Positions 8,468 to 61,688 of a stretch of 64,000 nucleotides of DNA are shown here, piece by piece (position 1 is the first letter of the stretch; every line of letters starts with the position of its first letter). Both the position numbers and the translations under genes were made by a program. Under the pieces are notes generated by a model. That model saw only the letters and a program-made list of their open reading frames with translations, did not search any database and was not told where the DNA came from. The stretch is taken from assembly GCF_028858725.1 (NCBI RefSeq), contig NC_084763.1, positions 4,898,001-4,962,000 of the forward strand, in the 5' to 3' direction. Origin of the DNA: Colius striatus (Eukaryota > Chordata > Aves > Coliiformes > Coliidae).

Positions 8468-28856
<20,389 letters not shown>

Positions 28857-43850: not shown

Positions 43851-46800
43851 AACAAGAGCATGGATTTGATGGGCCAGAAACATGTCTCATACAATTGGTG
43901 TAGTGCTGAAGTGATATTCTACATTAGCTTCTGATGGCATTTCAGTTTGCTGTTTAAATCTGTGCTGTATGTATTGTAGCCTTTATGCATTACACCTCTG
44001 AAGAGAAATCAAAAGGCTTGACTATCCATGGCCAACGTAGATGACAACACTGTGTAATGTTCTTCCAACTTCATTGTGGGAAACTCTAAGGATATTGAAT
44101 AATAATTACTTTCAAGACAAAATAATTTGTAGCTAGTTGGTGCTAATATTCTGTCATTTCCACTGTGTTAAATGTTTGAATTAAGAGATTTTCATTTCCT
44201 TGTGGAAAAACATTAATAAAGTAACATGAACAGGACAGTTATTTCTTGTACTGACATATGCAAAAACCATTACTGCACGTTCCAGCCTTTGCAATTGCTG
44301 CAATGTATTATTGGAAGAGGCCACATGTTCTCACTCGTTTTGCTAATGGGATTTTAAAAGACACATGGATGATCTGGGATGCAGGAGCACTGAGAAGCTT
44401 GAATGAAGTGAAATTCTCCACTTGGGAATGACCTATTCATATAGGAAAAGATCATTTTGCCACACCAATCCTTTTGCTTCACTCAAGTGAATGATTTTTT
44501 TTCTGCAGAGCATTTTATGGGCTCTTTGGCCCACCAGCAGCTTCCCTGACAGCAAACATGGACCATAGAAAACTCACAAAAAGTATGGCCTGTGGCCCAA
44601 GAAGCACATGGTTCAAATAAACAGAGTACACTAAAAAGAGAGGTTGCCTCCATCCTTAACAGTTTTTAATAAAGCTTTTACTGTAACACCTTATCTGGGT
44701 TTTTCATCAGCTTTCAGCATTCCCACAGAATAAACTTTTCTAGCTGTGCCAGGAGAAATATTAAAAATCAAATTCCACTTGCACTACCAGGTCCTGCCCC
44801 ATATAGCAGAAACTGCAAGGTAGCCATTTCACCTTTGTGCTAATCCTGCACTGTCTGGGCTCCTTGGGAGGCTCCTGCAGCCAAAGACAAGTTCTGCTAG
44901 CCAGGGAGTTATGAGTTCACTACCAAAAGACAGAGCCAAGCCGGAGGTGTGGACAGCTTCCATCCCTCCCAAGTTCTTCAGCCCTGGTAAAGGAGCGCAC
45001 AGAATCCCTTCACTTCAGCTTTTCCCTGGGAAAGGAGAATGTTACCTTCCTAATACGGTGAGAGTGTGGAGTAGGGATATCTGTGGCATGACCAGGCCCA
45101 GTAATTTCAGGTTTTTTAACCCAAACATACAATCCACTGTAATGGGACTTCCTTGATGCCTCCCCTAAAAGTTTACTTGACGTTTCCACTGTCCTTCCCT
45201 CCTGCAGATTGCAAGGTCATTGATAACTGCCCTGGTGAAATGGGCTACAGGAATGAACGACAGCAAAGGAATGCTTGTTTATTCCATACACAGTGCTTGA
45301 GGCTCAAGATTGTTTCAATAATCCCTTCTTGTAACAACATATGGGGAAAGCCCTCCCAACAGACTGCTCCTCTCCTCCCTTAATTACTCATCCCTGTGTT
45401 TTGGAGCAGCAGATAGGCAAGAAAGAAAGAAATTACAAATGAAGTTCATGCCTAATGTAAGAAAACATTATGGGCAAAGCACAAACCAACAGGGAATATG
45501 AAAAAGTGCTCAAGTATTTCACACCTTGATGAAAATCCATACAGGCCAGTCCTCAACTAAGCTTAACCTTACAGCCACCTTATTATATTGTCTTTCACAG
45601 AGTTTCATCACAACAGAAAGCTGCCTTAAAGTCTGGTAACCTTGCAATGGGATTTTATGCATAGAGTTGTTTTCAGGTCACTGGCACACTGAAGGCAGCA
45701 CAGGTATGTTATTAGTTCTCCACTATAAAATGCTCTCTCTCCCAATGTGCTGGACAACATACAAACTGCAAAGGTGATTTCATGTTTTTTAACATAAACC
45801 ATCTAACCATCTAACTAAAAAAGACCTCATCAGTGCTCAGCTCATTACAAGTACCCTGTCCCATGCTGTAACTGAACACAGCTATGCCAGCAACAAACTA
45901 TTCCATCATTTGAAGATCTTTTAAACCTTTAAATGAAAGGTTCTGAAAACAAAGGAAAACAAAAGGCAATCCAAAGCCTCCATGATTTATACTTTAATTT
46001 CAGCTGTGGGAGACAAAGCAATGCCCTTTCAACAATTTAGCCATTTTCCTTGCACAAAAACCCCCCACTTTACATATTTCCAGTCTAATAGTAGTCATTA
46101 TGTGTTATTTGGCCATGAATTCTAACCATTTAAGAAGCAAGATTGGGTGACCGAAATGTCACTGTGCAGAAACAAAAATGGCAGATAACAAGATTTCCTT
46201 TTGACAAAAAATGATCGTTTAGGTGGTTACTTCTGGATAAAATTATAGGGATCTTCAAATCGAATTTAAACAACGCTTCAGCAAAAGAAAACCCAAGAAA
46301 ACGTTGGGTTTAAATACAGATGCGACGTCTCTGCCCCCTGGTGTTACAACCTGCAAAGTGCATTTGCTTTTCCTGCGGGCTCAGTGCATATTTACCTTCG
46401 TGTGAATGTTGTCTGTATTTTCATAAATGGTATGAGCTGTTCCTAAGAGTTTGTTTCTTATATTCCATTTTAATAAAGACAGATGTAGGATAAATTGGTC
46501 ACAGCTACAAGATTTTTCCACATTGGCTAAATCCTGGAATTCCACCTATGTATCATCTTTACTGAAACATGACTGCTGTTGTTTTGACCATGATTTCCTT
46601 TCTAGACAACTCACCTCATCATCATCCATCAGATGCTCCTTTGCAAAGTCATACATTTCCAACTGCAGCGTGGTTATGTTGTGGTATCGAACTGCCTCCT
46701 GTCAAAACCCAACATTTCTCTGTTACTTTAGGGAAGTAAGACAGGGGAGCATCATCACATGTCACCTGAAACTACTCCAGTGAAGTCAGACATAGGCTTA

Positions 46801-49800
46801 GTAAAAGGTTAGATCTCAAGGGGAGGTTCTAACGTTTGAGAAAGGAAATGGCAGAAGAGCAAGCAACAAATCCAATGTCTTCTGTGGCTCTTTCTAAGCA
46901 CAGGCTCCATTGGTATGAGAAGAACAAAGCACTCTCCCCTCTTTCTCATGTTTCAAAGCATTGGCAAGGCTGAGAATAAGGAATGAGACTGCCAGAGCTG
47001 AGCAGCAGCCTGTGCCTGCATTCCAGTGGGCTTTGGACCCCAGAAAGCCTCTGTCTCCCTGTGTGCTGGCCTGCGGTGGCAGGCAGTTCTGGGAAAAAGA
47101 GACACCGAGCTATTTTGCATGATAATGACTCACCATCCAGGCCTGAGTCTGGATGAGGGATGTTCTGCACAGTGGCCCACCTGTCCCTCCTCACTTCTCT
47201 GGCTGTTTGCCCAGACAGCAGGGTTTAGCTCAGTCACCTACTCTCACATTTGTGAATAACAACAGTAATCTGCTTTGATGATTCCGTTTAACTCTTTTTT
47301 GGGGGGAGGAAAACAGGAGAGTTCCTCTTTCACAAAGCTTTAGTGTCAGAGCTAATTGCTGCTGTCACCCTGTTACCACTTTCTGAAAATAAACCAGAGG
47401 CACTATGGTTTTCATGGCAAGCAATTAGGACAGCAAGCAACTTCTGTTCATAGCTGCATGGATCAAAGCGCAAGAAAAATACAGCTGTGTGCATTTCATA
47501 TTTCATATTTAAAAATCAAATTATCTGTAGTCTCCAGCTCCTGAGAAGTTATCAATGAAACATTCAGAGGTAATGTGTAGGGCCCTTGTTCTGTCCTCTC
47601 TGCACACGTACGCCAAACCCGTCTGCGGTTTGCAATTCTATACTGTTGCTACCCCTCGCTCCCACTGCCATCAAACATTGTCTCCAGTACAGCTACAGAG
47701 CACAGCGCTGTTCCCAAAAGCAGTGACAAAGAAGTGATCCCTGTCCTCTGCAAGCTCACACTCGCTGCAGCTGCCTGAAAGAACCAAAACACATTCCTTT
47801 TCGCTGCCTTCTGGCCTTGTAGGGCGGGTGGGAGTTCCCAGCGTGTGGCTGTGCTGCACATAACAGTTGTCCACAAATACAACCCACTTAAATGGAGTGG
47901 TATTTTTGACTTGAGCTGGCTGGCCTGAGAGGCAGGAAAGTGTAATCATCAAATCAGTGCAGCCTGTAAGGTACACACATGAGCTGCTCTGCAGTGCTGC
48001 TGCAGAGAAAGGCGGTCAACCAAGCACTGCACGGATGTGCTGACTTTAACGTGGCATTAAGAATCAAAGGCTGCAGGGCTAACACACGTCTTGGGGACTG
48101 AGGTATCTGAAGAAGCAACACAGAAAGGGCAACTGCAAAGATGCCTTCATATATACATTTTGCCTGGACATGGAAACTTAAGACCACTGTAGAAACTCGA
48201 GTTTTAGGGTCATTTCTCAAAGCCAGACCATTGCTGCACAGACTGGTGCTTACTGGGAGTTCTTTGTAGCAAGCACTCTAACTGAGATTGTTAGATGGAA
48301 TATGGTCCTGAGCCTTTTTACCATCCTCATTCATCCAAATATATTCTAAACAGAGGGACTGGAAAGCGAGTTTATGTCACTTTATTGTGGTGGTTGTATC
48401 TGGACACATCCCAATGCCCACAGAACCTGACACAGCAAGCAGGTGGGCAGCTGTGTGATGGCAAATAATAACTGATTGACAAAATCCTGAATGTCATCGC
48501 TGTGATCTTTTCATCAGGAGATTTCAGGGGCCAGCTGCTTTATTTATCAAAGTAGATAAAGATATAAACATGCACAAGTGCCAGACAAGTACCAGCATGA
48601 ACTTACATGTCATCATATCATATTCCATCTTATTACAGTGTATTTGACATTCACTGTCTACATCACACAGTACACCTCTATGTACAAATATCTATATAGT
48701 TTTAATAAAACAGTATGTGTTTAGCCCTCATTTTCCCAACCAGACCCAGAGATAATTCACAAACTCTGACCCTCTGAGTTTCAAGGAAATATGTGAATAT
48801 ATCTGGAAGGTGTTTTAAAGTAATTCACCTACCGATCTGGGCTGAAAATCCTCTTCTTTAAGCCCCCATTTGTCTTTGTGGTACTGATAATAGACCATGT
48901 TCTGTTTCATTACTTCATCTTTCTGGTCAAACAGAAGGTAACTAGCAGCACAAGATGCTGCATTCTTCATGTCATTCACTAATTAATAAACATAGACCAA
49001 AATTAAAATACAGATAAGGTAAATAAATGAACAAAATCCTACTATTATCTAAGCTCTCACTATCTCAGATGGAAACACAACCTATTTTCTACCCTGTCAC
49101 AAGCTGCAAAGAATAAAAAGCTTCTCAGGAAGGAGATGCTATTTGTGTGTTCTGAAATAGGTAAGGCCATGACTGAAAAATGGGGATTTATCTCTGGTTT
49201 TCTTTGAAAATCCCAGCCAAATATCCCTCCCAGGTATCCCAGCACCAGTGAGGTATCAGCACACAGCCTGGTGATCCCCACTGGGGCAAAATTTAACCCA
49301 CTTCCCTCTTTGCACTAGAACTGACAGAATCCAGCCCTTATGTTGAGCAATTTATTTTGTCATGGCACCTTTTATGAGCACAGACTCTATATACAATGCT
49401 TATCTCCCATATCTGTTAACTACAGTTACACTGGGAGACAAAAAAGATGCCAGGAGGCTCAGAATTTCTGTCCCAGAACAGGTTAAAATGCAGATTCTAG
49501 AGGCCACTATTTACATTCTAAAGCCTTACAATTAGAAGGAAAAGGTAATGAATGGAAGCTATCTTATATCACCCCAATGTTATTAAGCACAATAAGTCAC
49601 TACTTACATTTATAATATCACTACTTACATTTATAATAAGCAAACTGCAAGTAGTGGTACATGGTAGCCACAAACTTCTCAACAACAAAGCCTCCTATAA
49701 TGGGTGTCAGATTACTCTCACACTGCACTTTGCATGCAAGGACTTCAATATAATGATCTAGAAGGAAGAAAATAACACAGGCTAGTGCACAGGGAATTGT

Positions 49801-60284: not shown

Positions 60285-60371
60285 GCTTCGTTGATCCAAG
60301 GCATCCCTTCATAACCCCATTATTGCCTACTGGAGACTCTGCAGACAGAAAGGAGCGGTCAGGAAGCAAAG
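60272..60371 (+). promoter_or_regulatory. TMPPE: Splice acceptor and 5' UTR of the TMPPE exon
   Basis: 'ttcctggttgcag' ending at 60284 is a plausible acceptor 87 nt before the TMPPE start codon, fitting a transcript that starts at the GLB1 promoter and splices into this exon. If GLB1 exon 1 (ending at 57493) is joined here, the GLB1 ATG stays open for nine more codons and stops at 60312-60314 (TAA), upstream of the TMPPE ATG. Confidence 0.55.
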
Positions 60372-61688
60372 ATGATCTCCTTCAAGCAACTGCCCCTTGA
60401 AGCAAAGGCTGCAGTGGCTGCAGGAGTGGTTTTCTTCTCCACGATGCTGTCGCGGAGTTATGTGGCAGAAAAGCTCGATCTCAGGATGCGGCGATGGCTT
60501 CTAAGGCTGCAGATGGCACTGTTTGCTAATGCACTCATGTTGATAGGATCTCTTCATGTTTGGAAAAGCACAGTGACCACGTTCTCCAGGTCTTCAGCTG
60601 CCAGCTCCTTCTGTTTCATGCCGTGGAAAATAGCTGTGTTCATGTTTCTAGCTTTGGCTCATTCAAGCTTCTTTACGTTGCTATTTCTCGTGGCAGAAGA
60701 GCCTTATTTCTTTTCTTTAGCTGCCTACACTTGCCTTGGGGCTTATATCATTCTTATCTTCTTCCTCTTCACTCTAGGCTCGGTAGAGCAGGCTTACAAG
60801 TTATTGGCTGGGAGAAGTGCTAAGGCAGGCACTGGCAACAAGAACAGAATGGCGATGAAACCAGTTTTGGCAGTCATGCTGACAATTGTGCTGACTGTTG
60901 TCGGGTTGTTAAATGCTTCCCAGCCTCCTATGGTGAACTCAGTGGAGGTTCCAGTTCACAAACTGCCCTCAACAATGAATAATCTGAAAGTGGTGTTGCT
61001 TTCAGATATCCACCTGGGGCCCACAGTTGGGAAGACCAAGCTTGCCATGATTGTGAGAATGGTTAAGGCTTTAAAACCAGATATCACTGTGATTGTTGGG
61101 GACCTTACTGACTCTGAGGTAGACATCATACGACCTGCTGTGGAGCCTCTTGGAGAACTTAACTCCCCTTTGGGGACTTACTTTGTCACAGGAAACCACG
61201 AGTACTACACATCAGATGTTAGCAACTGGTTTGAGCTGTTAAAATCTTTTAATATTCAGCCACTCCATAATGAGAATGTGAAGATAGTCTCACCAAAGAG
61301 CACTGATGACTGGTTCTGCCTGGCTGGTGTTGATGATATTGAAGCAGATGTATTGCGCTACTCAGGGCATGGCATGGATTTAAAAAAAGCTCTCAGAGAT
61401 TGTAGCAGTGAGCATGCAATAGTGCTGTTAGCTCATCAGCCCGTTGCTGCTAAGTGGGCCCTTCAGGAGAGGCCAGACATCAATTTAATTCTCTCTGGCC
61501 ATACTCACGGAGGGCAGATCTTCCCCCTGAACGCTGGAGCTTATTTGCTGAATCCATTCTTTGTTGGCTTGTACAAAGTTGGGCAGAACACCTTTGTCTA
61601 TGTTAGCCCAGGGACGATGTACTTTGGAATACCCATGAGGCTGGGTAGCAGAGCTGAAATAACAGAGATCATTCTACGTTCTCCTTGA
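60372..61688 (+). CDS. TMPPE: TMPPE, transmembrane protein with metallophosphoesterase domain
   Basis: An intronless 438-residue ORF nested in GLB1 intron 1, same strand (human TMPPE about 453 residues, same arrangement). The N-terminal half has about five hydrophobic helices (roughly residues 10-30, 45-65, 80-105, 110-135, 160-185). The C-terminal half is a calcineurin-like metallophosphoesterase with all metal-binding motifs: D212-x-H214 (LLSDIHLGP), GDLTD with D244, GNHE (274-277), H355 in LLAHQP, and G376-H-T-H-G-G. The catalytic site therefore looks intact. The substrate is not known to me. The ATG has A at -3. It likely shares the GLB1 promoter. Confidence 0.96.

Follow-up and report, generated by a model that had tools for sequence, protein, structure and literature searches.

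Introduction

Three human donor duplications in print, in OCT1, MSH6 and ATP11A, show use of the outer of two tandem donors. The variant rs35854239, common in humans, duplicates 8 bp together with the donor between exon 7 and intron 7 of OCT1 (SLC22A1), with outer-donor use of 38-52% in minigenes versus 0.3-0.6% in liver; it is reported to lower expression, an effect moderate in the authors' judgement (PMC8137991). The MSH6 variant c.3936_4001+8dup duplicates 74 bp over the exon 9 donor in carriers described as being without normal transcript, the outer donor outnumbering exon skipping by 7:1 in one cloned analysis and skipping alone being reported in one carrier's saliva (PMC9818763). In a minigene, the 8-bp donor duplication c.3322_3327+2dup of ATP11A shifts the junction outward (PMC9035003). 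In a designed library of tandem 5' splice sites, the first consensus donor predominates for sites 2-77 nt apart (p = 3.3e-5; PMC6783452). SUN5 dupGT likewise affects a donor, its effect being given at the protein rather than the RNA level, as protein loss, in the consulted part of the report (PMC7927044), and that part of PMC8724738 holds nothing deciding between inner and outer donors. Among the matches listed for the CRTAP, chicken and splice literature, no title concerns a 21-bp donor duplication.

Here we describe a locus of this kind in CRTAP, within a window of 64 kb (the whole stretch of DNA that was analysed; G000:C7:4898001-4962000). It shares three features with OCT1-type donor duplications: an exact copy spanning the exon/intron border, a complete donor in each copy, and a premature stop reached via the outer one. 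Both genes are otherwise functional, but the OCT1 duplication is an 8-bp, frameshifting, measured polymorphism, whereas that of CRTAP is 21 bp long, introduces in-frame stops and is known here from sequence alone. The MSH6 case, as reported, is likewise an exact tandem duplication of an exon end and intron start with a premature stop via the outer donor; unlike CRTAP, it copies 66 exonic bases, outer-donor use and skipping replaced normal splicing, and the allele is pathogenic or likely so. The ATP11A duplication also lies over an exon/intron border with a premature stop via the outer site, which is the one used in its minigene, but only two intronic bases are copied, so that the inner site is an incomplete donor, and the frame is shifted. 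The library resembles CRTAP in placing two equal donors near enough to compete, and differs in consisting of synthetic human contexts in K562 cells rather than a natural allele.

Results

A 21-bp unit is exactly duplicated across the exon 4/intron 4 boundary

Direct comparison identified two head-to-tail copies of TATTATAAATGTAAGTAGTGA, without mismatch, at 49638-49597 on the minus strand, spanning the end of CRTAP exon 4 (Table 1). On this strand the order is GCT, TATTATAAATGTAAGTAGTGA, TATTATAAATGTAAGTAGTGA, CTTATT. Tandem Repeats Finder reports the same interval (49597-49638; period 21, 2.0 copies, 100% match) with a score of 84, the top score among its 44 rows for the window. Both methods bear out the exact repeat across the junction that an earlier note on this DNA had described; its count of 12 shared exonic-side bases has to be corrected, as the unit comprises 10 exonic and 11 intronic bases.

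We found no additional copy of the unit with up to three mismatches in the window, and 100 shuffles gave a mean of 0.00 matches at that threshold. Twenty Markov-1 sequences as long as the window, scanned for periods 10-60, yielded four full exact tandem copies in total (periods 10, 11, 12 and 13) and none of period 21. Since the repeat is unique in the window, top-scoring and not reproduced in the Markov-1 sequences, we consider it a true duplication in the assembly and exclude a chance match.

Table 1. Positions within the window of the repeat, its donors and stops, and the CRTAP coding exons
Feature	Position	Strand	Basis or remark
Inner (first) 21-bp copy: last 10 bases of exon 4 and first 11 of intron 4	49618..49638	-	Comparison, Tandem Repeats Finder
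Outer (second) 21-bp copy, identical to inner	49597..49617	-	Comparison, Tandem Repeats Finder
Inner donor AAT/GTAAGT, junction 49629/49628	49623..49631	-	Gives K-L-N-D on joining to 48978
Outer donor AAT/GTAAGT, junction 49608/49607	49602..49610	-	Donor scoring, gene model
Successive in-frame stops TAG (49623-49621) and TGA (49620-49618)	49618..49623	-	Read solely upon outer-donor use
CRTAP first exon, coding	56791-56327	-	Rebuilt gene model
CRTAP second exon	52845-52696	-	Rebuilt gene model
CRTAP third exon	52094-51923	-	Rebuilt gene model
CRTAP exon 4, 129 nt, both boundaries in phase 1	49629..49757	-	Rebuilt gene model
CRTAP intron 4, 650 nt by inner donor	48979..49628	-	Rebuilt gene model
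CRTAP exon 5, 146 nt	48833..48978	-	Rebuilt gene model
CRTAP exon 6, 84 nt	46615..46698	-	Rebuilt gene model
Last CRTAP exon, coding part, 63 nt up to stop codon	38774..38836	-	Rebuilt gene model
Exonic CACTACTTGCA, predicted 11-bp pairing with TGTAAGTAGTG of either donor copy	49646..49656	-	Model only

Two further sequence elements lie close to the repeat. The 6-mer CTTATT occurs on the minus strand at 49640-49635, overlapping the start of the first copy, and at 49596-49591, directly past the second. These 6-mers, which would have stood 23 bp apart in the single-copy ancestor, may have helped slippage; a pure slip on them would duplicate 23 bp, as opposed to the 21 bp present. About 90 nt deeper in intron 4, AATGTAAATAGTG (49505-49517, minus strand) matches the core of the repeat unit at 12 of 13 positions. 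With all three counted, 0.12 such matches are expected across the window, and 5 of 5000 Markov-1 introns attained 12 of 13. We considered this element as a third, partial copy left by an older duplication and set it aside, as it was noticed post hoc and makes a poor donor (3.99; U1 duplex -1.6); it is perhaps such a relic, or else a chance match.

The duplication lies in an otherwise intact CRTAP gene

Joined on the minus strand, seven coding exons yield an open frame of 402 residues, and all six introns start with GT and end with AG. The product matches the Pfam Leprecan TPR family (PF23557, E 8.9e-127), and its residues 3-399 align to PDB chain 8k0e_B, named Cartilage-associated protein (E 2.4e-211), which we take to be the human protein; the match to prolyl 3-hydroxylase 1 (8k0e_A) is far weaker (E 8.8e-60). 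The gene and exon had therefore been named correctly as CRTAP exon 4. No other signs of decay were found in the rebuilt gene. The open frame, the intron ends, the alignment to CRTAP and the Leprecan TPR match together point to a gene that looks alive and has the inner donor as its conserved one.

Elsewhere in the window, long frames are found on the plus strand at 60315-61685, 27378-28853 and 18394-18771. They resemble TMPPE and portions of SUSD5, which are neighbours of CRTAP in other vertebrates. The ATTCTATG repeats in the window are presumably CR1-type tails and, taken with the assembly size of 1.21 Gb, suggest a bird; when a CR1-like frame was scanned against Pfam, no family matched.

Use of the outer donor would introduce two stops

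The full donor (-3 to +6) is AATGTAAGT in both copies. The earlier note had paired both donors with the acceptor before 48978 and assigned the normal frame to the inner one, in agreement with the rebuilt gene: with the inner donor, AAAT is spliced to TGAATGAC and the junction reads K-L-N-D, the same residues as in the 8k0e CRTAP chain. The outer donor adds 21 nt, and the frame becomes Lys-Cys-Lys-TAG-TGA-Tyr-Tyr-Lys-Leu-Asn-Asp. The Cys-Lys-stop foreseen for this donor is therefore right, with a second in-frame stop, TGA, directly after the first, and the normal frame returns past both. The predicted outer-donor product has 307 residues instead of 402, the final two of which are new. The stop is a by-product of sequence and phase: in this intron phase GTAAGT and the AG after it are read as (N)GT-AAG-TAG.

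An mRNA is usually directed to decay when its stop lies over some 50-55 nt upstream of a junction, and the same distance is the stop-distance criterion for regulated unproductive splicing (AS-NMD). The first outer-donor stop precedes the later coding junctions by 13, 159 and 243 nt. By this rule the latter two distances predict nonsense-mediated decay for outer-donor mRNA, which, between the truncation and the decay that the earlier note had offered as outcomes, makes decay the likelier and a truncated protein the less likely.

Using a donor matrix, the scores of which are rough, we obtained 8.14 for each of the two identical 9-mers, the fourth highest among the six CRTAP donors, while the next-best site in exon 4 and intron 4 scored 5.82 (at 49302). 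The U1 duplex energy of the repeat-donor 9-mer is -5.1, and it is equalled or bettered within exon 4 and intron 4 at 49722 (-5.4), 49573 (-6.4) and 49369 (-5.3), three sites which again indicate that the donor scores are rough. Since the two 9-mers are identical and equal in score, competition between inner and outer donors is plausible.

A paralogous exon has a single donor

A 261-bp query covering exon 4 and the repeat, searched against the whole assembly, recovered its own locus at 100% identity and one other place at 77%. The latter is a paralogous exon (L002, contig C40; G000:C40:3390364-3393480), 77% identical over 117 bp, in a Leprecan-family gene that we presume to be P3H4 (SC65). It has a single consensus donor, AAGC/GTGAGT, at the same codon as the inner donor of CRTAP, and its joining to TGAACGAC of the same gene, read by eye, also gives K-L-N-D. 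A second donor copy is absent from this exon, which says little about CRTAP itself.

Exact tandem duplications of this size are common

We surveyed 20 stretches of 10 kb each (200 kb) from contig C7, on which the window lies, for exact tandem copies with periods of 15-60, dropping low-complexity units. One stretch (L022; G000:C7:58000001-58010000), near the end of the contig, contains minisatellite arrays of 21-22 bp. It was left out, as several of its 12 exact matches come from a few such arrays. The 19 ordinary stretches contained three exact tandem copies in 190 kb, one each in L008, L016 and L019. At this frequency, duplication could affect tens of donors in a genome of such size, before any selection. 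A sum that includes the finding itself (4 per 254 kb), allows a 21-bp unit 13 placements and assumes 170,000 donors gives about 35 doubled donors per genome, which should be read as an order of magnitude only. The CRTAP donor duplication is a draw from a common mutation class, one that by chance fell on a junction.

The copies agree at 21 of 21 positions, which would fit any age from a living polymorphism up to some tens of millions of years, a rough estimate that uses a bird substitution rate. Judged by its sequence, the duplication appears real, young-looking and small, and a lineage-specific or individual duplication, as the earlier note had put forward among its options, fits best.

Fold models of the exon-donor hairpin point both ways

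With two copies present, the fold model pairs CACTACTTGCA with the inner donor, the mean pair probability over an 8-bp core being 0.98 versus 0.019 for the outer donor. With flanks of 60-200 nt, the modelled opening cost is 4.1 kcal/mol for the inner donor, 5.4 for the outer donor and 7.6 in a single-copy model; when the flanks are centred on the individual sites, the costs of the inner and outer donors are 4.11 and 4.30 kcal/mol. The single-copy cost was attained by 7 of 200 flank shuffles and the outer-minus-inner difference by 52 of 200. Opening costs of 6.4-8.4 apply to four of the five remaining CRTAP donors. Pairing of the inner donor with the exon could favour the outer donor, an argument countered within the same models by the lower opening cost of the inner donor. 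We therefore treat the hairpin as weak evidence, pointing both ways.

Discussion

The probable explanation, in our judgement, is a small recent duplication followed by mainly inner-donor use, with a decaying minority of outer-donor transcripts. Replication slippage or end joining would have produced a small and fairly recent 21-bp tandem duplication over the junction of exon 4 and intron 4 in a CRTAP gene that is intact elsewhere, so that the spliceosome now faces two identical donors 21 nt apart. The inner donor, which the spliceosome encounters first and which adjoins the intact exon, would serve most transcripts and yield normal CRTAP, while the outer donor would take a minority carrying TAG-TGA, to be cleared by nonsense-mediated decay. 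CRTAP output would fall modestly as a result, and the duplication would be nearly neutral, perhaps polymorphic, and without special function. The predominance of the first consensus donor in the designed library speaks for this reading (PMC6783452). The reported MSH6 carriers, being without normal transcript, are the opposite of an inner-first rule and count against inner-donor dominance. As OCT1, MSH6, ATP11A and the library disagree in degree, the donor ratio at CRTAP is not confidently predictable.

Unlikely, though worth weighing, is a second copy that is real yet silent, with nearly exclusive use of the inner donor and no measurable effect. The preference of the designed library for the first donor, described as first-come-first-served, favours this outcome (PMC6783452), and the CRTAP gene of the sequenced animal is otherwise intact; the 38-52% outer-donor use reported for OCT1 minigenes argues against it, though the copies there are 8 nt apart (PMC8137991).

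We hold it to be decidedly unlikely that the outer donor or exon skipping dominates, which would make this a strongly hypomorphic or null CRTAP haplotype tolerated through heterozygosity or residual normal transcript. The MSH6 allele, as reported, provides a precedent, with its lack of normal transcript and the 7:1 excess of outer donor over skipping in one cloned analysis (PMC9818763), and the lengthened exon of the ATP11A minigene is reported in the same direction (PMC9035003), although ATP11A copies only the first two intronic bases and its inner site is an incomplete donor; the OCT1 and designed-library results, as published, also oppose such dominance (PMC8137991, PMC6783452). The model pairing of the inner donor with the exon would favour it. 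In people, loss of CRTAP causes recessive brittle-bone disease, and a harm of this kind makes a fixed null unlikely.

That the repeat is an assembly or read error and the animal single-copy is very improbable: short tandem duplications can be mis-assembled, but the contiguity here is good (1.21 Gb in 191 contigs), the unit is copied without mismatch and is not low-complexity, and similar duplications occur elsewhere in the contig C7 sample.

We give still less credence to a maintained, regulated splicing-plus-decay switch that tunes the CRTAP level. The geometry, with its double stop and decay-prone transcript, would permit one, as would the modelled exon-donor hairpin, yet the paralogous exon has no second copy, the copies show no divergence, as expected of a young event, and the stop follows from GTAAGT and AG being in phase, while the hairpin is only weakly unusual among shuffles and other CRTAP donors cost alike to open. 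The built-in leaky unproductive isoform of the earlier note, understood as a maintained device, is therefore unsupported. Scarcely credible is the proposal that the duplication altered a donor masked by the 11-bp hairpin between CACTACTTGCA and TGTAAGTAGTG, such that the exon strand pairs with one copy at once and leaves the other easier to open, proteins that shift the hairpin could switch between productive and decaying CRTAP transcripts, and a splicing switch arose in one mutational step.

The kind of mutation preferred here, a small duplication with mainly inner-donor use, is ordinary and has close human precedents; in this case it lies in a bone-collagen gene, and CRTAP dose matters for bone collagen. 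If both donors are not in use, this is an unremarkable small duplication, and annotators should not call CRTAP broken. Published evidence on donor choice points both ways, with MSH6 on one side and the library and OCT1 on the other. If RNA has both donors in use, the locus would be a natural experiment on the choice that the spliceosome makes when two identical donors stand 21 nt apart.
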